Source of the DNA: Rhodospirillales bacterium
Lineage (GTDB): Bacteria > Pseudomonadota > Alphaproteobacteria > BOG-932 > Roseiterribacteraceae
Assembly: GCA_028291345.1 (NCBI GenBank)
Contig: JAQGIF010000330.1
Coordinates: forward strand, 1-32,354
Reading direction: 5' to 3'
Length of the DNA stretch: 32,354 nt
The translations under genes were made by a program, and so were the position numbers. Below the pieces are notes generated by a model. It searched no databases. It saw only the letters and a list, made by a program, of their open reading frames with translations, and was not told the DNA's origin. Positions within the stretch are counted from its first letter, which is position 1; every line of letters begins with the position of its first letter. Of the stretch, positions 846 to 19,798 are shown piece by piece.

Positions 846-2729
846 TCACACGCTCCATTCCGGCTCGACCATTTTCTGGTCGATCCGCGGATCGTGGAAG
901 CGGGAATCGACGAATCCAACCAATCTGTCGACTGCCTCTGCGATGTCAAGCTTGCCGGTATCGATCGTCAGATCCGGCATGACCGGGATCTCATAGGGGG
1001 CGTCCACACCGGCATAGAATTTGATCTCTCCGCGCCGCGCGCGCGCATACAACCCTTTTGGGTCGCGCGCCTCACAGAGTGCCAGGTCGGCGCGGATATG
1101 AACTTCGGCAAAACCGTCGCCTACGATGGCGCGGGCAAGGTCGCGGTCGGACTGCAAGGGCGACACCAAGGCGGCGATAGCGATATTGCCGGCATCGGCC
1201 AGCAGCTTAGCCGTCTCCGCGACGCGGCGTGTATTTTCGGTCCGGTCCGGCGGTGCGAAGCCCAGATCGTGCGACAGACCGCGACGGATCAGATCGGTGT
1301 CGATTACCACCGCATGCATGCCGCCTTCGAATAGAGCCCGTTCCAACGCCGCGGCGAGGGTCGATTTCCCCGAGCCCGGCAGGCCAGTCAGCCACAGCAC
1401 CGCGCCGCGATGGCGGTGGCGGCGTTCGCGTTCCTCACGCGAGACACCACCATAGACCGCGGCAGTTTGATCATTGATCTCCGCCTCGACGAAATCGAGC
1501 ACGATCGCGCCGCCCAACGCGTCGCCGCCATCCGTCAGGACCGCGCGGCCGGTGCGCGGCAGGGCCGCATAACGATCGACCGGAACGGGGTCCATGACGT
1601 CAAGGATAATTTCGGCAACCTGGTTGGTCAGAACCTGGGTCGCGGGCCGCTTCTCCAAAGTGTGGAGATCGACGACGCCGTCGATCAACCAGACCATCAC
1701 CCGGTATTCGCCCGCCGCCAATCGCAGGGTGAAGCTGCGCCCGACCGCCAGCGGCTCCGCCGCCAGCCAGAACATACGCACCGTCAGTCGGCGCGCCATC
1801 CGGATGGGCTCCGCAGCCGGGGCGGCGATATGACCTCGTTCGACAAATGCCCGTTGGTCGAGCGTGATACCTATTGTGTCGCCCGGGGCGGCACTCATGC
1901 GCCGGCTCGTCTGGTTCCAATCCTCGATCGACGCCACCCGGGCGATCGACCCGCCCGGTGCGAAGGCCAACGCATCGCCGACCCGAAGCACGCCGCTCTC
2001 GACCCGCCCCGCCAGAATGCGCCGTTCGTCGAATTTATAGATGTCCTGCACCGTGAAGCGCAGCGCCAGCACATCGGGCGAGACTGCGTCAGGCTCGACG
2101 CGGTCCAGCGCCTCGAGCAGGGTCGGACCGTGATACCAGTCCAGGCCCGGCGTGCGCACCGCGATCATATCGCCATGCTTCGCGCTGATCGGGATGATCG
2201 CGGTCGCGGCAATATCGATCTGCTGCAGATAATCGCGTACCTGCTTGGCAGCCGTCGCAAAGCAGTCGGCCGAATAGTCGATCTTGTCCATCTTGTTGAC
2301 GGCGACGATCAGACGCCTGACCCCCAGCAAGGTCAGCAGATAGAGATGACGGCGCGACTGTTCGAGTGTGCCCTCGGTCGCATCGATGACGACGATCGCG
2401 AGATCGGCAGAAGCCGCGCCGGTCACCATATTGCGCAGGAATTCATCCTGGCCGGGCGCGTCTATGATCGCAAACGCGCGGCGGGGCGTACGGAACACGG
2501 CCTCGCTGGTGTCGATCGTCGTGCCCCGGTCGCGTTCGACTTGCAATGCGTCGGTCACGAATGCCCATTCGAAATCGACGCCGCGCTTGCGGCTCATCTC
2601 GGCCACAGCTGCGACACGGCCGTCGGCCAGCGCGCCCGCCTCATTCAGCAGGCGGCCGATCAGAGTCGACTTACCATGATCGACATTGCCGACGATGACG
2701 ACGCGGAGCGGCTCGAGACCTTCATCCAT
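846..2729 (-). CDS. cysNC: Bifunctional sulfate adenylyltransferase large subunit / adenylylsulfate kinase (CysN-CysC fusion)
   Basis: A 627-residue fusion of two sulfate-activation enzymes. Residues about 1-420 are the CysN GTPase of ATP sulfurylase: P-loop GNVDHGKS at 14-21, DAPGQ at 90-94, NKMD at 145-148. CysN couples GTP hydrolysis to APS synthesis by CysD. Residues about 440-610 are APS kinase: P-loop GLPGSGKS at 449-456, DTDLIRRGLSHDLGF at 477-491 and EARDPKGLYARARRGEIK at 553-570. The kinase phosphorylates APS to PAPS. The CysNC arrangement is common in Proteobacteria. The ATG overlaps the TAA stop of the upstream CysH-CysD gene (TAATG), which indicates translational coupling and co-production with CysD. 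Oddly, the reductase next door has APS-reductase-type cysteines, so the PAPS made here may not be strictly needed for assimilation. Confidence 0.96.
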   Translation of the reverse strand: MDEGLEPLRVVIVGNVDHGKSTLIGRLLNEAGALADGRVAAVAEMSRKRGVDFEWAFVTDALQVERDRGTTIDTSEAVFRTPRRAFAIIDAPGQDEFLRNMVTGAASADLAIVVIDATEGTLEQSRRHLYLLTLLGVRRLIVAVNKMDKIDYSADCFATAAKQVRDYLQQIDIAATAIIPISAKHGDMIAVRTPGLDWYHGPTLLEALDRVEPDAVSPDVLALRFTVQDIYKFDERRILAGRVESGVLRVGDALAFAPGGSIARVASIEDWNQTSRRMSAAPGDTIGITLDQRAFVERGHIAAPAAEPIRMARRLTVRMFWLAAEPLAVGRSFTLRLAAGEYRVMVWLIDGVVDLHTLEKRPATQVLTNQVAEIILDVMDPVPVDRYAALPRTGRAVLTDGGDALGGAIVLDFVEAEINDQTAAVYGGVSREERERRHRHRGAVLWLTGLPGSGKSTLAAALERALFEGGMHAVVIDTDLIRRGLSHDLGFAPPDRTENTRRVAETAKLLADAGNIAIAALVSPLQSDRDLARAIVGDGFAEVHIRADLALCEARDPKGLYARARRGEIKFYAGVDAPYEIPVMPDLTIDTGKLDIAEAVDRLVGFVDSRFHDPRIDQKMVEPEWSV

Positions 2730-4300
2730 TACATATAGCCGCCGCTGCGCAGTCTCTCGAACGAGTCCTCCGCCTCATGATCCATTGTGCGCCCCGCACG
2801 CTCGGGAGCCTTGGTCGTCTCCAGTTCAGCGATAATATCGTCGATCGAGGCGGCCACGCTAGCCATCGGCTGAGTAATATTGCTTTCGCCCAGCGAGCGA
2901 TAGCGCATTCCGTCCTGGGCCAAATAGGCGGGCACGATGGGGATGCCCTCGGACTTGGTATAGCGCCAGATATCCAGTTCTGTCCAACCAAGCAGCGGGT
3001 GAACGCGGACATGCTCGTCGTCGGCTACGCGCGCCTTATAATGGTCCCAGAATTCAGCGGGCTGCTGTTCGATATTCCAATCGCCCTGGTTGGAGCGTGG
3101 CGAGAACACCCGTTCCTTCGCCCGGGTCGACTGTTCGTCGCGACGAATGCCGACGATGACGCCATTCAGCTTTTCGCGGCGAATGATCGCCTTCAGGCCG
3201 GCGCTTTTGCGCGCAGCGGCGCGCGCCAGCGGCGGCAGGCTGGGGTCGATATCCTCGACCGGCGGGCAGGCTTCGATCCGCAGATCCAGCCCCCACTCGG
3301 CGGCATAGCGGTCGCGGAAATCATAGACCGACGGCAGTTCCATGCCGGTGTCGAGCTCGACCACCGGGAACGGCACGCGGCCATAGAAGGCCTTGCGCGC
3401 CAGCCAGATCAGCACGTTGCTGTCCTTGCCGACCGACCACAGCATAGCAAGCTTCGGCAGGCGGGCGAAGGCCTCGCGCAGGATATAGATGCTCTGATTC
3501 TCAAGCTCGATCAGATGCTTCGGCGCGCGGGGCGGACGCTTGGCCGGAATGCGCGACAGATGAATGCCGCACTCGGTTTTCTCCAGCCCGGCCCAGCGTC
3601 CCGACCGCGCATCGGCACCGGGGGCGACCTTTTCCGTGCAGGGCATGCAGCCGATCGACAGGAAGCCGTCGGCAACCAGCGGATGACGCGGCAATTCACG
3701 GCGCTTGAACTCGGCCTCAAGTTGCTTCGCATCCCAATTGGCCAGCGGGTTGATCTTCAGCTTGCCATCCTCGGCTTCGATGGTCGGCAGCGCGGCGCGG
3801 GTGCCGCTCTGAAAACGCTTGCGCCCGGTGATCCAGCCGACATAGGACTTCAGCGCCCGGGCCAGCGGCTCGACCTTGCGGAACGCGCAGCAGGCGTCGT
3901 TATTGTCGCGCCAGAGCGTGCCAGCCTTATCCAGAGCCGCCTCAGCCGCGGCATCGGGACCGAAGGTCTGAACATTGGTGAGCCCGAGGAACTTCACGAG
4001 CTTGTCACGATAAGTGCGCGTCTCACCGAACAGCTTGCCCGTGTCGATGAAGATCACCGGGACCGCAGGGTCAATCTCCGCCGCCATCGCCAACAGCACC
4101 GCAGATTCCGCCCCGAAGGACGACACGAGCGCGATCTGGCCCGGCATCTCCTGCGTCAGCAGAACGCGCAGCAATTCGAGACCGTCGAGATGACCGTATC
4201 GTGCCGTCAAATCGGCCACGCGCAACGCGGCACCATCGACGACGATATCGGACGTTACGGTGAAAGGATCTACCGAAGCAGTGGCGAGCGGGGCTGACAT
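2729..4300 (-). CDS. cysH-cysD: CysH-CysD fusion: adenylyl-sulfate (APS/PAPS) reductase fused to sulfate adenylyltransferase small subunit
   Basis: One 523-residue open frame holds two normally separate enzymes. Residues about 35-250 are a CysH reductase: PP-loop-like SSFGAES at 60-66, the cysteine pairs C137-C138 and C218/C221 that bind [4Fe-4S] in APS-type reductases, and the catalytic tail KTECGIH with C244. Residues about 262-523 are CysD, ATP sulfurylase subunit 2: SVGKDSN at 289-295, GIRRDEQSTRAKERVFS at 384-400, and MRYRSLG at 465-471. The two are joined by only some 15 residues (IPAKRPPRAP). CysD makes APS from ATP and sulfate with CysN, and CysH reduces it to sulfite. The gene opens the minus-strand operon and overlaps cysNC. 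The frame is continuous with no stop or weak stretch at the junction. CysH substrate choice (APS, PAPS or both) is inferred from the cysteines only. Confidence 0.93.
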   Translation of the reverse strand: MSAPLATASVDPFTVTSDIVVDGAALRVADLTARYGHLDGLELLRVLLTQEMPGQIALVSSFGAESAVLLAMAAEIDPAVPVIFIDTGKLFGETRTYRDKLVKFLGLTNVQTFGPDAAAEAALDKAGTLWRDNNDACCAFRKVEPLARALKSYVGWITGRKRFQSGTRAALPTIEAEDGKLKINPLANWDAKQLEAEFKRRELPRHPLVADGFLSIGCMPCTEKVAPGADARSGRWAGLEKTECGIHLSRIPAKRPPRAPKHLIELENQSIYILREAFARLPKLAMLWSVGKDSNVLIWLARKAFYGRVPFPVVELDTGMELPSVYDFRDRYAAEWGLDLRIEACPPVEDIDPSLPPLARAAARKSAGLKAIIRREKLNGVIVGIRRDEQSTRAKERVFSPRSNQGDWNIEQQPAEFWDHYKARVADDEHVRVHPLLGWTELDIWRYTKSEGIPIVPAYLAQDGMRYRSLGESNITQPMASVAASIDDIIAELETTKAPERAGRTMDHEAEDSFERLRSGGYM

Positions 4301-4679
4301 CTTTGTACTCTAAGGCCTGGCGATTTTAACACTCTGAGAACGTTGTTTCTGTGCATTGCACATTGCCATATGATTGGGCCATATTGCAATCCTTCAAGGC
4401 CTATGTGGAATTGTCACATTTTCTATAAATAAACTGTTTAATGTGGCCTAGCCCGCTTCATATCCACTAAAAGGTCGCAAATGTGCGGTTTAGCGGGTGA
4501 GACACCGCGCATGAAGAGAGACGTCGGAGGGCCAACCGCGCTAATTTGCGAAAATTTCATGACAGCCATGAGCAATTTAACATGCATGAGTCCCTATCTT
4601 GGTCTACCGGACCGCAACTGGCGCCGGGCTGCCTGGACAGTTTACAATACGGGCACCAAATGAAAGCGAACCCAGTGCC
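4301..4679. promoter_or_regulatory. AT-rich divergent control region between the two sulfur operons
   Basis: This stretch of about 380 bp separates the divergent cysH-cysD and DUF2849-cysI operons and is visibly richer in A and T than its surroundings. It holds several nested symmetrical motifs: ATTGCA (4355-4360) facing TGCAAT (4385-4390), GCCATAT repeated directly at 4365-4371 and 4378-4384, ATGTG-N7-CACAT at 4403-4419, and the 11-bp palindrome TAAACTGTTTA at 4430-4440. These look like regulator binding sites, but no specific regulator (for example CysB/Cbl-like LysR) can be named from them. I could not assign a convincing -35/-10 pair to either operon and saw no recognisable riboswitch. 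A 60-codon frame at 4481-4663 is discussed among rejected items. Confidence 0.5.
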
Positions 4680-4949
4680 GTGACCACCGAAACCAAACTT
4701 TACGCCATCACCGCGAGCCGCCTGCGCGATGGCGCGGTGATTTATTTCGCGGGCAAGCAGACCTGGTCGGTGAAATTCGCCGATTCCGCGATCGCCCCTG
4801 ATGGTGACGCGCTGCTGGCCGAGGCGGCGGCAGGCCCCCCGCCGCTGGAAGCGGTCGGCGCCTATGTAATCGAAGTGACCCAGGCGGAGGGAATCATCCG
4901 CCCGGTCGGACTGCGCGAAGAAATTCGGGCGTTCGGCCCCACAGCGTAG
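4680..4949 (+). CDS. DUF2849 family protein of the sulfite reductase operon
   Basis: A small protein of 89 residues from the GTG at 4680, matching the DUF2849 family that sits directly before sulfite reductase in many Alphaproteobacteria. The motif TASRLRDGAVIYFAG near the start and YVIEV near the end fit that family; its biochemical role is unknown. An upstream in-frame start at 4599 exists but would add sequence that does not look protein-like, so GTG 4680 is preferred despite a weak ribosome binding site. A seven-codon reading frame (ATG at 4660) ends in TGA overlapping this GTG and could couple translation, though that is speculative. It is followed after 25 bp by cysI. Confidence 0.8.
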   Translation: MTTETKLYAITASRLRDGAVIYFAGKQTWSVKFADSAIAPDGDALLAEAAAGPPPLEAVGAYVIEVTQAEGIIRPVGLREEIRAFGPTA

Positions 4950-4974: not shown

Positions 4975-6627
4975 GTGTATCGGTATGACGAATTCGACAG
5001 ACGCTTCCTCGACGAGCGGGTCGCGCAATATCGCGATCAGGTGCGCCGCAGGCTGGCCGGCCAGTTAAGCGAGGAAGAGTTCCGGCCGCTGCGACTGCGC
5101 AACGGGCTCTATCTGCAGCTGCACGCCTATATGTACCGGATCGCCATCCCCTATGGCACTCTGTCCCCGGCGCAGTTGCGGATGCTAGGACATGTCGCGC
5201 GCAAATACGACCGCGGCTATGGCCATTTCACAACCCGCCAGAATATGCAGTTCAACTGGATCAAGCTGGACGAATCGCCGGATATCATGGCCGATCTGGC
5301 GTCTGTGGAAATGCACAGCATCCAGACTAGCGGCAATTGCATCCGCAATACGACCTCAGACCCGTTCGCCGGCGTCGCCGACGACGAGATCGAGGATCCG
5401 CGGCCTTATTGCGAGATCATCCGGCAATGGTCCACCCTGCATCCGGAGTTTTCCTGGCTGCCGCGCAAATTCAAGATTGCGGTATCGGCATCGAAAAAGG
5501 ATCGGGCAGCGGTCCATGTCCACGATATCGGCCTCTATCTCGTCCGCAACGCGGAGGGCGAGGTTGGCTTCCAGGTTCTGATCGGGGGCGGGCTGGGCCG
5601 CACGCCCATCATGGCCAAGGTGCTGCGCGAGTTCCTGCCCAAGAAAGACCTGCTGTCCTATCTGGAGGCCGCGCTGCGCGTCTACAACGAGTATGGCCGC
5701 CGCGACAATATCTATAAGGCCCGCATCAAGATCCTGGTTCAGTCCTTGGGCATCGACAAGATGCGCGAGGCGGTGGATGCGGAGTGGGCCAAGATGGACC
5801 ACACGCCCCTGGACCTGGACAACGAGACCGTTCGGGCCATCATCGCCCATTTCGCCCCACCCGCCTATGCAGCCGTGGGCAAAGATGATGACGCCGTCTT
5901 CCAAGCAGCCGTCGCTTCGGACAGGAAATTCGCCCGCTGGATGAAATACAATGTCGCCCACCACAAGCAGCCCGGCTATGCCATCGCCACCGTTTCGCTG
6001 AAGCCGCTCGGCACGCCGCCGGGCGACATCACCGCCGAACAGCTCGATCTGCTCGCCGAGCTGTCCGAGACATATGGTTTTGGCGAGGTCCGGGTTACCC
6101 ATGAGCAGAATGTCGTGTTCCCGGACGTGCGCCGCAGTGACCTGCCGGCCTTCTATAATGCCCTGGCGGCCGCCGGCCTCGGCACCGCCAATATTGGCCT
6201 GGCGAGCGACATCATCGCTTGTCCTGGGCTGGATTATTGCACCCTGGCCAACGCGCGCTCCATTCCGGTTGCTGAGAAGCTCGGCGAGCATCTCGCGGAC
6301 CGTGAAGAAGAGGTCGGTCCGATGAAGATCAAGATCTCGGGCTGCATCAATGCCTGCGGACACCACCATGTCGGCCATATCGGCATTCTCGGCGTGGATA
6401 AGAACGGCGAGGAATTCTACCAGATCACGGTGGGCGGCAGCGCCGATGAGCAATCGGCCGTGGGCGGCATCGTCGGCCGAGCCGTTTCCAGCGATCAGGT
6501 GAACGACGCTGTCGACAAGCTGCTGGACGTTTATGTTCGGATGCGCTGCGAGGGCGAGGACTTGCCCGCCACCTATCGCCGGGTCGGCCCCGAACCGTTC
6601 AAGGAGGCCGTTTATGGTGCTCATTAA
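4975..6627 (+). CDS. cysI: Sulfite reductase hemoprotein subunit (CysI/nitrite-sulfite reductase family)
   Basis: A 550-residue siroheme and [4Fe-4S] reductase that converts sulfite to sulfide in six electron steps. The two cysteine pairs that hold the cluster and siroheme are visible: C416-X5-C422 (CPGLDYC) and C457-X3-C461 (GCINACGHHHVGHIG). TTRQNMQFNWI near residue 86 is a typical ferredoxin-like half-domain motif. The start is GTG at 4975 behind a good AGGAG site. The protein is in the shorter hemoprotein class common in Alphaproteobacteria. No flavoprotein CysJ is present in the window, so the electron donor is probably ferredoxin or another reductase. Nitrite reductase is an alternative by family, but the cysteine-biosynthesis setting argues for sulfite. 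Confidence 0.94.
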   Translation: MYRYDEFDRRFLDERVAQYRDQVRRRLAGQLSEEEFRPLRLRNGLYLQLHAYMYRIAIPYGTLSPAQLRMLGHVARKYDRGYGHFTTRQNMQFNWIKLDESPDIMADLASVEMHSIQTSGNCIRNTTSDPFAGVADDEIEDPRPYCEIIRQWSTLHPEFSWLPRKFKIAVSASKKDRAAVHVHDIGLYLVRNAEGEVGFQVLIGGGLGRTPIMAKVLREFLPKKDLLSYLEAALRVYNEYGRRDNIYKARIKILVQSLGIDKMREAVDAEWAKMDHTPLDLDNETVRAIIAHFAPPAYAAVGKDDDAVFQAAVASDRKFARWMKYNVAHHKQPGYAIATVSLKPLGTPPGDITAEQLDLLAELSETYGFGEVRVTHEQNVVFPDVRRSDLPAFYNALAAAGLGTANIGLASDIIACPGLDYCTLANARSIPVAEKLGEHLADREEEVGPMKIKISGCINACGHHHVGHIGILGVDKNGEEFYQITVGGSADEQSAVGGIVGRAVSSDQVNDAVDKLLDVYVRMRCEGEDLPATYRRVGPEPFKEAVYGAH

Positions 6628-7108
6628 GGGACGGCAGGTCGTCGCGGACAGCTGGCGGCACCTCGACGATTCCGATCCCCTGCCCGCCACGGGCGCGGTC
6701 ACGATTTCGTGGGAGCGTTGGACAGTTGAACGCGGCACAATTGCGCGGCCGCGGGCACAGCTGGGCCTCCGCATCCCCAACACGGTGACCACCGCAGTGA
6801 TCGGCGCAGATGCCGATCACTGCGGATTGATCGCCGTCGCCTTCCCTAATTTCGGTGATGGCCGGGCCTTCTCGCAAGCGCGGGTCCTGCGCAGCCAATA
6901 CGGCTTTCGCGGTGAGATCCGCGCCACCGGGAACGTGCTGCGCGACCAACTGCAATTCATGGAACGCTGCGGCATCGACGCCTTCGAAGTGCCCGAGCGG
7001 GCTTTGACCGAGGACTGGCTCGCCGCGTTTTCGGAATTCGATCTGTTCTACCAGCCAGCCGCGGATAGCCGTCCCTGGATCGCCCGTCAGCGCGCCGGGC
7101 GCAACTGA
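6614..7108 (+). CDS. DUF934 family protein, sulfite reductase-associated
   Basis: This 164-residue protein belongs to DUF934, found next to cysI in many Alphaproteobacteria and often annotated as an oxidoreductase or CysI-associated protein. Its exact role is unproven; an accessory or electron-transfer function in sulfite reduction is an inference from gene order. The chosen ATG at 6614 follows AAGGAGG and overlaps the end of cysI by 14 bp, which suggests coupled translation. Recognisable segments include AVAFPNFGDGRAFSQARVL and LRDQLQFMERCGIDAFE, both typical of the family. Its sequence shows no signal peptide, membrane segment or paired metal-binding cysteines. Confidence 0.88.
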   Translation: MVLIKGRQVVADSWRHLDDSDPLPATGAVTISWERWTVERGTIARPRAQLGLRIPNTVTTAVIGADADHCGLIAVAFPNFGDGRAFSQARVLRSQYGFRGEIRATGNVLRDQLQFMERCGIDAFEVPERALTEDWLAAFSEFDLFYQPAADSRPWIARQRAGRN

Positions 7109-7113
7109 CGGGC

Positions 7114-7686
7114 ATGACCGTTCCGCTGGCGCTTGATCTGGCGCTTCTACCGGTCGCGCTGGCCGGTTCCGGCCCCGCACTGGTCAAGCGGCTGACCTTT
7201 CTGGATGGCGAACGGGTGCCGGGCCTCACCGTCTATGCCCCGGACCCGGCACCGGCCTTGGCCCGTGCCGCCGGCGGACGTCTGATCCCGCGGCTTCCCA
7301 CCGATGACGAAATTGCCGCCTGTCGCCTGCTGTTCGTCGCCGGCCTACCGTTTGCCCAATCGGCGGAACTTGCCGCGCTGGCCCGCAATCACGGGGTGCT
7401 GGTGAATGTCGAGGATACGCTGCTGCTCTGCGACTTCCACGTCCCCGCCGTCCTGCGGCGCGGCGAACTGGCGATCTCCATCTCCACCGGCGGATCGAGT
7501 CCGACGCTCGCGCGCCGGCTGCGCACTTATCTGGGAGACCTTCTACCGCCGGAATGGTCCGACCGCATCGCCCGTATTGCCACGTTGCGCGAGGATATGC
7601 GGGCCCGGGGCGCCGGGATGGCGGAGGTCACCAGGGCGACCGACGCATTGATCGACAAAGAGGGCTGGCTGCCGCCATCGCTTTAG
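7114..7686 (+). CDS. Precorrin-2 dehydrogenase / sirohydrochlorin ferrochelatase-like protein (siroheme synthase N-domain)
   Basis: A 190-residue protein matching the N-terminal (Met8p/CysG-B) module of siroheme synthase. It would oxidise precorrin-2 with NAD and insert iron, making siroheme for the CysI encoded upstream in the same operon. Visible features are the nucleotide-binding AGSGPALVKRLTFL at about residues 17-30 (glycine pattern slightly altered from GxGxxA), VNVEDTLLLCDFHVPAVL around 102-119 and the conserved AISISTGGSSPTLARRLR following it. The SAM-dependent methyltransferase half of CysG is absent and must be encoded elsewhere. It begins 5 bp after the DUF934 stop and ends tail-to-tail with the universal stress protein gene. 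Confidence 0.87.
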   Translation: MTVPLALDLALLPVALAGSGPALVKRLTFLDGERVPGLTVYAPDPAPALARAAGGRLIPRLPTDDEIAACRLLFVAGLPFAQSAELAALARNHGVLVNVEDTLLLCDFHVPAVLRRGELAISISTGGSSPTLARRLRTYLGDLLPPEWSDRIARIATLREDMRARGAGMAEVTRATDALIDKEGWLPPSL

Positions 7687-16860: not shown

Positions 16861-17255
16861 CGCCGGTGATTTCAAGCCATATCGAAAAAGCCTGCGAATG
16901 CCTCATAACCCCCAAACGCGCACGGGCGATAGGGCTTGCAGAAGATAGGGGCCGCGCGACATACGTCGCCGCCTTCCATGCTGCACAGGCGTTTATTCTG
17001 CTAAGTACCGGAAAAATTGCTAAAACGCAGACTGGCCTGCGCACCGAATTTGCCAGACTCGCAAAGGCTGGCCCGCATATCGGGTCGGCCTTAACGTCCT
17101 TTCTCGGCCAGAGCTATAAACTCAGGTCCGTCGCGGATTATGGCGTCGGCCAAGAAATCACCGTAACCCCTGCGGAGGCAGATGCGGCCATCGAAGTCGC
17201 GACGCGGTTTATATATTGCATCAGGGAAATTATCGCTGCCGATGATGAACATTGA
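16857..17255 (+). CDS. hepT: HEPN domain protein, probable toxin partner of MNT
   Basis: A 132-residue helical protein of the HEPN (COG1895-like) family. It shows GRATYVAAFHAAQAF at 32-46, KTQTGLRTEF at 57-66 and LRSVADYG at 89-96, all blocks of the family. HEPN toxins are RNases or nucleotide-dependent inhibitors held in check by their MNT neighbour. The family commonly has a histidine where this protein has Gln58 in KTQTG; whether this lowers activity is unknown. The start is GTG at 16857 inside the MNT stop. Its stop TGA overlaps the TTG proposed as the start of the next gene. Confidence 0.8.
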   Translation: MTPVISSHIEKACECLITPKRARAIGLAEDRGRATYVAAFHAAQAFILLSTGKIAKTQTGLRTEFARLAKAGPHIGSALTSFLGQSYKLRSVADYGVGQEITVTPAEADAAIEVATRFIYCIREIIAADDEH

Positions 17256-18055
17256 GCCGCCTTTTGCCTGGATCCCAAATAATCCCCACTGAAGCCCTCC
17301 TCGCCCCCGACGAGCCACCGGCCTGCGTCACGCTGGGACAGCCCAACGATTCGCCCTTCCTGCTGCTCTGCGACCATGCCGGCAACCGTCTGCCGCGCCG
17401 GCTCGGTACGCTCGGCGTGTCCGAAAGTGAACGCCAACGGCATATCGCCTGGGATATCGGGGCGGCGGGGGTCGTGCGGAACATGGCGGAGCGGCTGGAC
17501 GCGTTTGCCATCCTGCAGACCTATTCGCGCCTCGCGATCGACTGCAACCGGTCGCCTGCCGTCGACAGCTCGATCGTCGCGATCAGCGAGGATACCGAGA
17601 TACCGGGCAATCTCAACCTGTCGCCCGCCGACCGGGAGCAGCGTATCGTGGAGATTTTCCAGCCCTATCATAACCGCATCGCGGCCGAGCTCGACCGCCG
17701 GCAGGCTGCACGGATTCCAACGATCATCGTGGCGATCCATAGCTTCACGCCGGTCTATCGGGGCGTCGGCCGCCCCTGGCATGTCGGACTGCTCTATAAC
17801 CGCGACGACCGCCTCGCCCGGCCGCTGATGGTGCTGCTCGAACGCGAAGGCGGCCTGGTCGTCGGTGATAACCAGCCTTACGCCGTCAGCGACGAGTCCG
17901 ACTACACCATCCCCGTTCATGGCGAGCGCCGCGGCCTGCCGCATGGCGAAATCGAGCTGCGCCAAGACCTGATCGGTGACGAGGTGGGACAAAGTGTCTG
18001 GGCCGAGCGCCTTGCACGGCTTCTGACATTGTCGCGGGCCGCGATATCGCCTTAA
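17252..18055 (+). CDS. N-formylglutamate amidohydrolase family protein
   Basis: A protein of up to 267 residues matching the N-formylglutamate amidohydrolase (HutG/FGase) family, which hydrolyses N-formylglutamate to glutamate and formate. Key features are LLLCDHAGNRLPRRLG near residue 38 (metal-binding histidine), RLAIDCNRSP, and AIHSFTPVYRG near the middle. No ATG or GTG lies before the conserved region: the likely start is TTG at 17252, overlapping the HEPN stop, or TTG at 17264, neither with a clear ribosome site. It is co-directional with the preceding toxin-antitoxin pair and may depend on their transcript. No hut genes are near, so the substrate may differ. Confidence 0.83.
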   Translation: MSRLLPGSQIIPTEALLAPDEPPACVTLGQPNDSPFLLLCDHAGNRLPRRLGTLGVSESERQRHIAWDIGAAGVVRNMAERLDAFAILQTYSRLAIDCNRSPAVDSSIVAISEDTEIPGNLNLSPADREQRIVEIFQPYHNRIAAELDRRQAARIPTIIVAIHSFTPVYRGVGRPWHVGLLYNRDDRLARPLMVLLEREGGLVVGDNQPYAVSDESDYTIPVHGERRGLPHGEIELRQDLIGDEVGQSVWAERLARLLTLSRAAISP

Positions 18056-18094
18056 GCTTCATCGCCGTCCGGATCTGAATGTCGACGGGATAAA

Positions 18095-18982
18095 ATGCGA
18101 ATTCTGACCGTGCGGCACATCTCCACCTATCGCTACTCCAAGCCGGTCGGGCTCGGCGAGCACTGGATGATGTTCCGGCCGCGGGCCAGCCACGATCTCC
18201 GCCTAATCAGCACAACCCTCGACATCACGCCAGCGCCCAAGGAAGAGATCTGGCTGCACGACGTGTTCGACAATTCCGTCGCCGTCGCCAGCTTCAAGGG
18301 CAAAACTCGCGAGCTCAGATTCGAGAGCACCGTCACTCTCGAACATTTCGAGACGCCCCGCCCCGAATACCGGCTGGCGCCCGAGGCGAAGACGTTCCCG
18401 TTCGAATATGACCACGACGACCGGCCCAACCTGGAGCTCGGCCTGTTGCGCCGCTATCCGTCCCAGCGCGTCGACGACTGGGCGAAGAGTTTCGTGTCGC
18501 AAAACGGCAAACCACAGGGCACAATGGCGCTGCTGCGGGCCATCGTGCTGGGTACGCGCAAGCAGCTCGTCTATTCCCGCAGGGTCGAACGCGGGACGCA
18601 GACACCGGAAGAAACGCTGATGCGGGGCAGCGGCACCTGCCGCGATTTCGCCTTGCTGATGATCGAGGCGGTGAGGTCTCTCGGAATCGCCGCCCGGTTC
18701 GTCAGTGGCTATATTTTCGTGCCCGAAAACGTGTTCTCTAACACGGTCGGCGGGGGTGCCACCCATGCCTGGCTTCAGGTCTATCTTCCGGGCGCCGGCT
18801 GGATCGATTTTGACCCGACCAACAACATCATCGGCAACCGCAATCTGATCCGAGTGGCGGTCGCCTGGGACCCTGCGAACGCCCTGCCTCTATGGGGAAC
18901 TTTTATCGGTTCCGCCGCGTCATTCCTCGGTTTGGAAGTGACGGTCAATGTCGCCGACGAAACTCCGCCTAAGGAAGATTGA
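18095..18982 (+). CDS. Transglutaminase-like cysteine protease family protein (first of pair)
   Basis: A 295-residue protein with an N-terminal beta-rich bacterial-transglutaminase N domain (RILTVRHISTYRYSKPVGLGEH) and a C-terminal transglutaminase-like core. The catalytic triad is visible: C182 in GSGTCRDFA, H224 in GATHAWLQVYLP and D240 in DFDPTN. Such proteins act as peptidases or amide-forming enzymes; in Proteobacteria they often occur in pairs near ATP-grasp/alpha-E peptide-modifying genes, which are not seen here. There is no signal peptide. It lies 39 bp after the amidohydrolase gene and 3 bp before a second member of the family. Confidence 0.88.
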   Translation: MRILTVRHISTYRYSKPVGLGEHWMMFRPRASHDLRLISTTLDITPAPKEEIWLHDVFDNSVAVASFKGKTRELRFESTVTLEHFETPRPEYRLAPEAKTFPFEYDHDDRPNLELGLLRRYPSQRVDDWAKSFVSQNGKPQGTMALLRAIVLGTRKQLVYSRRVERGTQTPEETLMRGSGTCRDFALLMIEAVRSLGIAARFVSGYIFVPENVFSNTVGGGATHAWLQVYLPGAGWIDFDPTNNIIGNRNLIRVAVAWDPANALPLWGTFIGSAASFLGLEVTVNVADETPPKED

Positions 18983-18985
18983 CCC

Positions 18986-19798
18986 ATGGACATCAAGATC
19001 GGCTATGAGATCAGTTATAATTGTTTTCAACCGACGCCGATGATGCTGATGCTGAATGTGCATCATACCCGGGTCAACGACATGTATGCGCCGGACATCA
19101 TGTCGACCAACCCGGTGGTCCCGATCACTGGATATCGCGACGCCTTCGGCAACTGGTGTAGCCGGATCGTGGCGCCGGCCGGGTTAATCACGATCACCAC
19201 CAGCACGACGGTGCGTGATAGCGGCCTGCCTGATCGGGTCGTGCCGGGCGCCAGTCAGGTACCGGTCGAGCAATTGCCGGACGATGTGCTGGTCTTCCTG
19301 TTGGGCAGCCGCTATTGCGAGACCGACCGCCTGTCCGATATCGCCTGGAGCCTGTTCGGTGGCTATGCGCCGGGGTGGGAGCGCGCCCAGGCGATCGTCA
19401 ATTATGTCCATTATCACATCAAGTTTGGCTATCAGAACGCCCGCGCCACCCGCACCGCCTGGGAAGCGTTCAATGAGCAGATCGGCGTCTGCCGCGACTA
19501 TGCCCACCTGGCAGTCGCATTCTGCCGCTGCATGAATATCCCGGCGCGCTATTGCACCGGCTATCTGGGCGATATCGGCGTGCCCGTCTCGGCCGACCCG
19601 ATGGATTTCTCGGCCTGGTTCGACGTCTATCTGGACGGCGACTGGTACACGATGGACGCTCGCAACCGGATTCCCAGAATCGGGCGGGTTTTGATCGCAC
19701 GCGGGCGCGACGCCACCGACGTCGCGATCAGCAATGTTTTCGGCCCCAATGCGCTGATGCGTTTCAAGGTCTGGACCGACGAGGTCAAGACGCCTTGA
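18986..19798 (+). CDS. Transglutaminase-like family protein (second of pair), histidine position changed
   Basis: A 270-residue relative of the preceding protein but of a different subfamily. The N-terminal domain begins IKIGYEISYNCFQPTP, and the core has C169 in GVCRDYAHLAVAF, then PMDFSAWFDVYLDGDW and the aspartate D224 in TMDARN. The place normally taken by the catalytic histidine (HAW) holds Ser209 (SAW). I believe DFSAW occurs in other members of this subfamily, so it may be characteristic and not decay. It is probably co-expressed with the first member (3-bp gap; AAGGAAG site before the ATG). The substrate is unknown. Confidence 0.87.
   Translation: MDIKIGYEISYNCFQPTPMMLMLNVHHTRVNDMYAPDIMSTNPVVPITGYRDAFGNWCSRIVAPAGLITITTSTTVRDSGLPDRVVPGASQVPVEQLPDDVLVFLLGSRYCETDRLSDIAWSLFGGYAPGWERAQAIVNYVHYHIKFGYQNARATRTAWEAFNEQIGVCRDYAHLAVAFCRCMNIPARYCTGYLGDIGVPVSADPMDFSAWFDVYLDGDWYTMDARNRIPRIGRVLIARGRDATDVAISNVFGPNALMRFKVWTDEVKTP

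Follow-up and report, generated by a model that had tools for sequence, protein, structure and literature searches.

A single reading frame for CysH and CysD

In the window, i.e. the whole analysed stretch of 32,354 nucleotides, an APS/PAPS reductase (CysH) and the sulfurylase subunit CysD are encoded as one polypeptide. The APS-making enzyme half and the APS reductase are normally two proteins encoded by neighbouring genes. That the two are truly fused is borne out by all three examined genomes of the genus, in which the fusion is conserved. It represents a new, genus-restricted combination of two known enzymes, which is probably functional. A literature search found no paper on a CysH-CysD fusion.

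The gene, here termed cysHD (2729..4300, minus strand), runs from 4300 to 2729 as a single uninterrupted open reading frame of 523 codons. Based on profile matches, motifs and a predicted model, its product comprises CysH (residues 25-250), a linker (248-261) and a short CysD (262-523). PF01507 (Pfam) matched twice within the product, and the borders determined by profile were residues 25-250 for CysH and residue 261 for the beginning of CysD. The first-pass annotation had proposed one polypeptide with CysD starting near residue 262. The open frame and the two domain profiles bear this out, since both domain identities were matched by family profiles and the start of CysD was placed at about 261-262. 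A stop or frameshift at the junction near base 3530, which had been named as an observation against the fusion, is absent from the cysHD frame.

The interdomain linker (LSRIPAKRPPRAPK; 3518..3559, minus strand) has a low predicted order and comprises 14 residues in all three species. Inspection of the junction codons 236-285 of cysHD revealed no ATG, GTG or TTG, so that a separate CysD would be hard to make.

Distribution and divergence of the fused gene

The single cysH-cysD frame was found in 3/3 examined genomes of the genus, which comprises soil and bog alphaproteobacteria. The count is three and not five, as the loci L085 and L086 apparently duplicate the genomes of L004 and L005 with identical identity values. 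A search for the same architecture, as suggested by the first-pass annotation, yielded the two other genomes of the genus. No further unbroken cysH-cysD frame was present among the matches listed from samples of the class (385 genomes) and the phylum (399 genomes; some in both, together about 780). Among the matches listed from a plasmid search, only unfused relatives were found. In the remaining sampled genomes, cysH and cysD were either absent as a pair or encoded by two genes of their own, whose ends mostly touch or overlap. Both genomes of the sister genus carry a separate cysH ending in ECGIHR, which runs into cysD with an ATGA overlap, and in Azospirillum, Skermanella and others cysH and cysD touch, overlap or are separated by one in-frame stop. 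In the tree, the fused CysDs formed one clade with a support of 100/100, which points to a single origin. Accordingly, the sequences indicate that two adjacent, co-translated genes were joined in a single event.

Compared to the product of the window, the two other fused proteins showed identities of 86% and 81-83%. Among the three species, dS in the two domains was mostly 0.9-2.1, near saturation, with dN of 0.07-0.15 and dN/dS well below 1; the lowest dN of all parts of cysHD was determined for the CysD half. In the closest pair, the linker showed mainly silent changes (7.5/13 synonymous sites vs 2.5/29 other sites). When the window was compared with the most distant genome, a dN of 0.52 was calculated over the 14 codons, i.e. 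the sequence of the linker is poorly conserved and its length and frame are retained. The cysteines C137/138, C218/221 and C244 are invariant in the three species.

The two halves of the protein

The CysH half (residues 25-250; 3551..4228, minus strand) was assigned by profiles and PDB matches. It passed NF002537 (CysH) with 304.2 bits (cut-off 154) and TIGR00434 with 196.8 (cut-off 165.1), and it failed TIGR02055 (APS reductase, thioredoxin dependent) with 195.5 bits against a cut-off of 235.3. The best sequence match in the PDB was 7lhr from M. tuberculosis, and 2goy from P. aeruginosa was also matched. The domain carries the [4Fe-4S] ligands of the four-cysteine APS type (CC pair 137/138 and CxxC motif 218/221) and the nucleophile motif ECGxH (ECGIH, 243-247). 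All of these cysteines, including C244, lie exactly where the first-pass annotation had given them, and their APS-type character holds. Since the Fe-S cysteines are present while the TIGR02055 cut-off was missed, the domain is filed under the CysH family, with APS as its presumed substrate. Apart from the fused one, no CysH is encoded in the genome, which is 97% complete.

The CysD half (residues 262-523; 2732..3517, minus strand) was delimited by profiles and by comparison with 1zun_A. NF003587 (CysD) matched from residue 261 and was passed with 334.3 bits (cut-off 195), while the score of 229.8 for TIGR02039 (CysD) lay under the cut-off of 396.6. The half lacks an insert of about 30 residues after residue 462, before the FRTLG segment, which is present in the canonical CysD encoded elsewhere in this genome. 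In sequence and fold, its best solved relative is the P. syringae CysD 1zun_A. The PP-loop SVGKDS (289-294), RRDE (386-389) and RAKER (393-397) are intact and strongly conserved in the alignment. In the tree, the half sits in a clade of short CysDs, far from the canonical CysD clade. Most short-CysD loci have CysN(C) directly downstream, usually CysNC in alphaproteobacteria. In the sister genus (two genomes), neither a canonical CysD nor Sat (PF01747) was found, and by elimination the short CysD is the only candidate for the ATP sulfurylase there.

CysH and CysD are homologous PP-loop enzymes. A separate observation concerns the short CysDs outside the alphaproteobacterial clade, since in 36/36 of them the positions that correspond to the [4Fe-4S] ligands of APS reductase are occupied by CC...CxxC (e.g. 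LECCTELK / RSIGCVPC). Their genes (loci L008, L039, L041, L046, L052-L067, L069-L083 and L088) mostly adjoin CysN. In the short-CysD clade of the window these ligands are lost (AA / ExxI). A literature search on Fe-S or short CysDs yielded nothing on point, and an Fe-S 'CysD' looks undescribed in the papers covered.

AlphaFold2 predicted two confident domains for the cysHD product, matching 2goy_A (CysH) and 1zun_A (CysD), with disorder at 249-258 and a pTM of 0.53. For the alignment, separate cysH and cysD of relatives were joined as in-frame pairs through one stop. The model shows a floppy linker, and neither a fixed arrangement of the domains nor a channel is visible. Because the ECGIH tail stays within the flexible stretch, the model would still allow the reductase tail to swing in. 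The tail is indeed internal and tethered on both sides, as claimed before, but this is not a novelty of cysHD, since the plant-type APR has the same feature; a working enzyme was obtained when the plant-type thioredoxin-like domain was grafted after the tail of a bacterial APR (PMC6827007).

The CysNC partner and the second sulfurylase set

The adjoining cysNC (846..2729, minus strand) encodes a GTPase (CysN) joined to an APS kinase (CysC). Its start overlaps the stop of cysHD by one base (TAATG). The neighbouring CysNC fusion named in the first-pass annotation is present, and it is translationally coupled to cysHD. Both domains of CysNC are complete end to end (Pfam); against NF004035 (bifunctional CysN/CysC, PRK05506) a score of 540.5 was determined, which failed the cut-off of 715. 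DAPGQ as the G3 motif of CysN is confined to the three fusion genomes, and the sister genus has DAPGH. Among about 110 loci, 105/114 entries (duplicates included) have the G3 histidine, and the seven entries with glutamine are copies of the three fusion genomes. In the kinase, DGD is changed to DTD in the window and in L004, i.e. in two of the three fusion genomes, whereas L005 keeps DGD. This substitution could possibly weaken the APS kinase. Of the proposed two-protein, four-activity complex, the adjoining CysNC is in place, but since DGD is changed to DTD, four activities are not assured.

A canonical cysD-cysNC set followed by a cysQ-like gene was found on another contig (C10) of the same genome (L121, 9446-13022). 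Eight matches to sulfotransferase families were obtained in this genome and none to the Sat-type sulfurylase PF01747. Since the canonical set lies next to cysQ and sulfotransferases are encoded in the genome, a role in PAPS formation and sulfation is suggested for it. The genome thus seems to divide its labour between two sulfurylase sets, with that of the window providing APS for reduction and that on C10 providing PAPS for sulfation. The canonical set adjoins cofG/cofH-like and F420-ligase-like genes.

Divergently from cysHD, an operon of sulfite reduction is encoded on the plus strand. It comprises a DUF2849 protein (4599..4949), a NirA/CysI-like siroheme sulfite reductase identified by profile matches (4975..6627), a DUF934 protein, which is a usual neighbour of cysI and cysH (6533..7108, true start probably downstream of 6533), and a siroheme synthase of the CysG N-terminal type, i.e. 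the precorrin-2 dehydrogenase part (7114..7686, Pfam).

Proposed function and alternative explanations

Taken together, we consider it likely that cysHD encodes a bifunctional assimilatory enzyme, which together with the adjoining CysNC makes APS and reduces it. The C-terminal CysD half, with CysN of the next gene, would adenylate sulfate to APS. Formation of sulfite from APS would fall to the N-terminal Fe-S CysH half, acting through C244 and thioredoxin, and the siroheme reductase of the divergent operon would complete the reduction of sulfite. In the ancestor of one genus, two co-translated genes that touched each other would have lost the stop separating them. The fusion would set both steps at 1:1 and hold APS near the reductase before it reaches the APS kinase. 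Activity of both halves, APS as the substrate and a benefit of proximity are what we infer. Several observations weigh against the bifunctional reading: the canonical cysD-cysNC-cysQ could also supply APS, the CysD half is short and under the TIGR02039 cut-off, the linker is poorly conserved towards the most distant genome, and the model gives no fixed arrangement of the domains.

Two of the explanations to be weighed are sub-versions of the bifunctional one. According to the first, the stop was merely lost, and the active halves work independently on a floppy tether with a fixed stoichiometry as the only gain. Because cysH and cysD of relatives touch, overlap (ATGA) or differ by one in-frame stop, such a fusion needs only a tiny change, and the predicted disorder of the linker and the confinement to one genus among the matches listed are in line with it. 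Its chance is set at slightly under even, since the frame has been kept unbroken in three species across synonymous saturation and the genus-specific G3 change in the partner CysN hints at a joint change.

According to the second, the APS formed by CysD is transferred to the active site of CysH without being released, with CysN retuned for the transfer. The two halves are consecutive enzymes on the same chain, the APS kinase joined to CysN is a competitor for this APS, the change from DAPGH to DAPGQ is limited to the three fusion genomes among the roughly 110 loci, and channelling has been argued for a dinoflagellate ATPS-APR fusion (PMC2275785). As the model shows no rigid interface and the H to Q change in CysN may be unrelated, this version is rated as unlikely. 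The direct hand-over of APS between the halves suggested by the first-pass annotation is a plausible idea, and true channelling is possible. A stricter form, in which CysHD-CysNC turns sulfate into sulfite as a self-contained unit that APS never leaves, the GTPase switch of CysN was retuned along with the fusion (His to Gln at the catalytic position of G3) and PAPS comes from the canonical CysD-CysNC-CysQ, appears rather improbable.

Alternatively, the CysD half could be decayed or regulatory, with the canonical CysDNC elsewhere activating all sulfate and the CysH half working alone. The second set in the genome, the short and divergent sequence and the DTD in the partner kinase would fit this explanation. 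Nonetheless, it is judged very unlikely, since PP-loop, RRDE and RAKER are intact and strongly conserved, the lowest dN in cysHD lies in this half, its clade provides the sole candidate sulfurylase of the sister genus, and the canonical set with cysQ and the genomic sulfotransferases suit PAPS and sulfation. That a sequencing or assembly error deleted a stop between what are really two proteins is hardly credible: although the assemblies are drafts of metagenome type and the nearest outside relatives have two genes, frame and linker length are common to three independent genomes (81-86% identity) with no start codon near the junction, and as these genomes have diverged to synonymous saturation, error or chance is excluded for practical purposes.

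Comparison with known systems

The bifunctional reading of cysHD has a reported counterpart in the dinoflagellate Heterocapsa triquetra, where ATP sulfurylase and APS reductase are likewise joined in one chain and channelling was proposed. In contrast to cysHD, this ATPS-APR belongs to a eukaryote and was discussed within the phylogeny of the Sat-type ATPS (PMC2275785), whereas cysHD has a PP-loop CysD; its APR is of the type without Fe-S cysteines. The plant-type APR (TIGR00424) also has its ECGxH tail inside the chain, with a second folded domain behind it, but this domain is a thioredoxin-like electron donor and in cysHD a sulfurylase. As in the CysD/CysN(C) complexes of P. syringae (1ZUN) and M. 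tuberculosis (CysD-CysNC), a PP-loop CysD is combined with a GTPase partner, to which in M. tuberculosis the kinase is also fused. In both species CysD is free, while that of cysHD is short, lies behind CysH and has a partner with the G3 His to Gln change. The cysH-cysD-cysNC operons of Azospirillum, Skermanella and the sister genus agree in gene order, short-CysD clade and downstream CysNC, but consist of separate genes, with junctions that mostly touch, overlap or contain an in-frame stop.

APS is the branch point between reduction and PAPS formation, and the equilibrium of its formation is very unfavourable. A natural bacterial CysH-CysD fusion, together with the unfused enzymes of the sister genus, would offer a clean system in which to ask whether tethering benefits consecutive enzymes of sulfate metabolism.

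Elsewhere in the window (17252-19798, plus strand), an N-formylglutamate amidohydrolase-like gene is followed by two tandem transglutaminase-like genes, as named by reading of the sequence.
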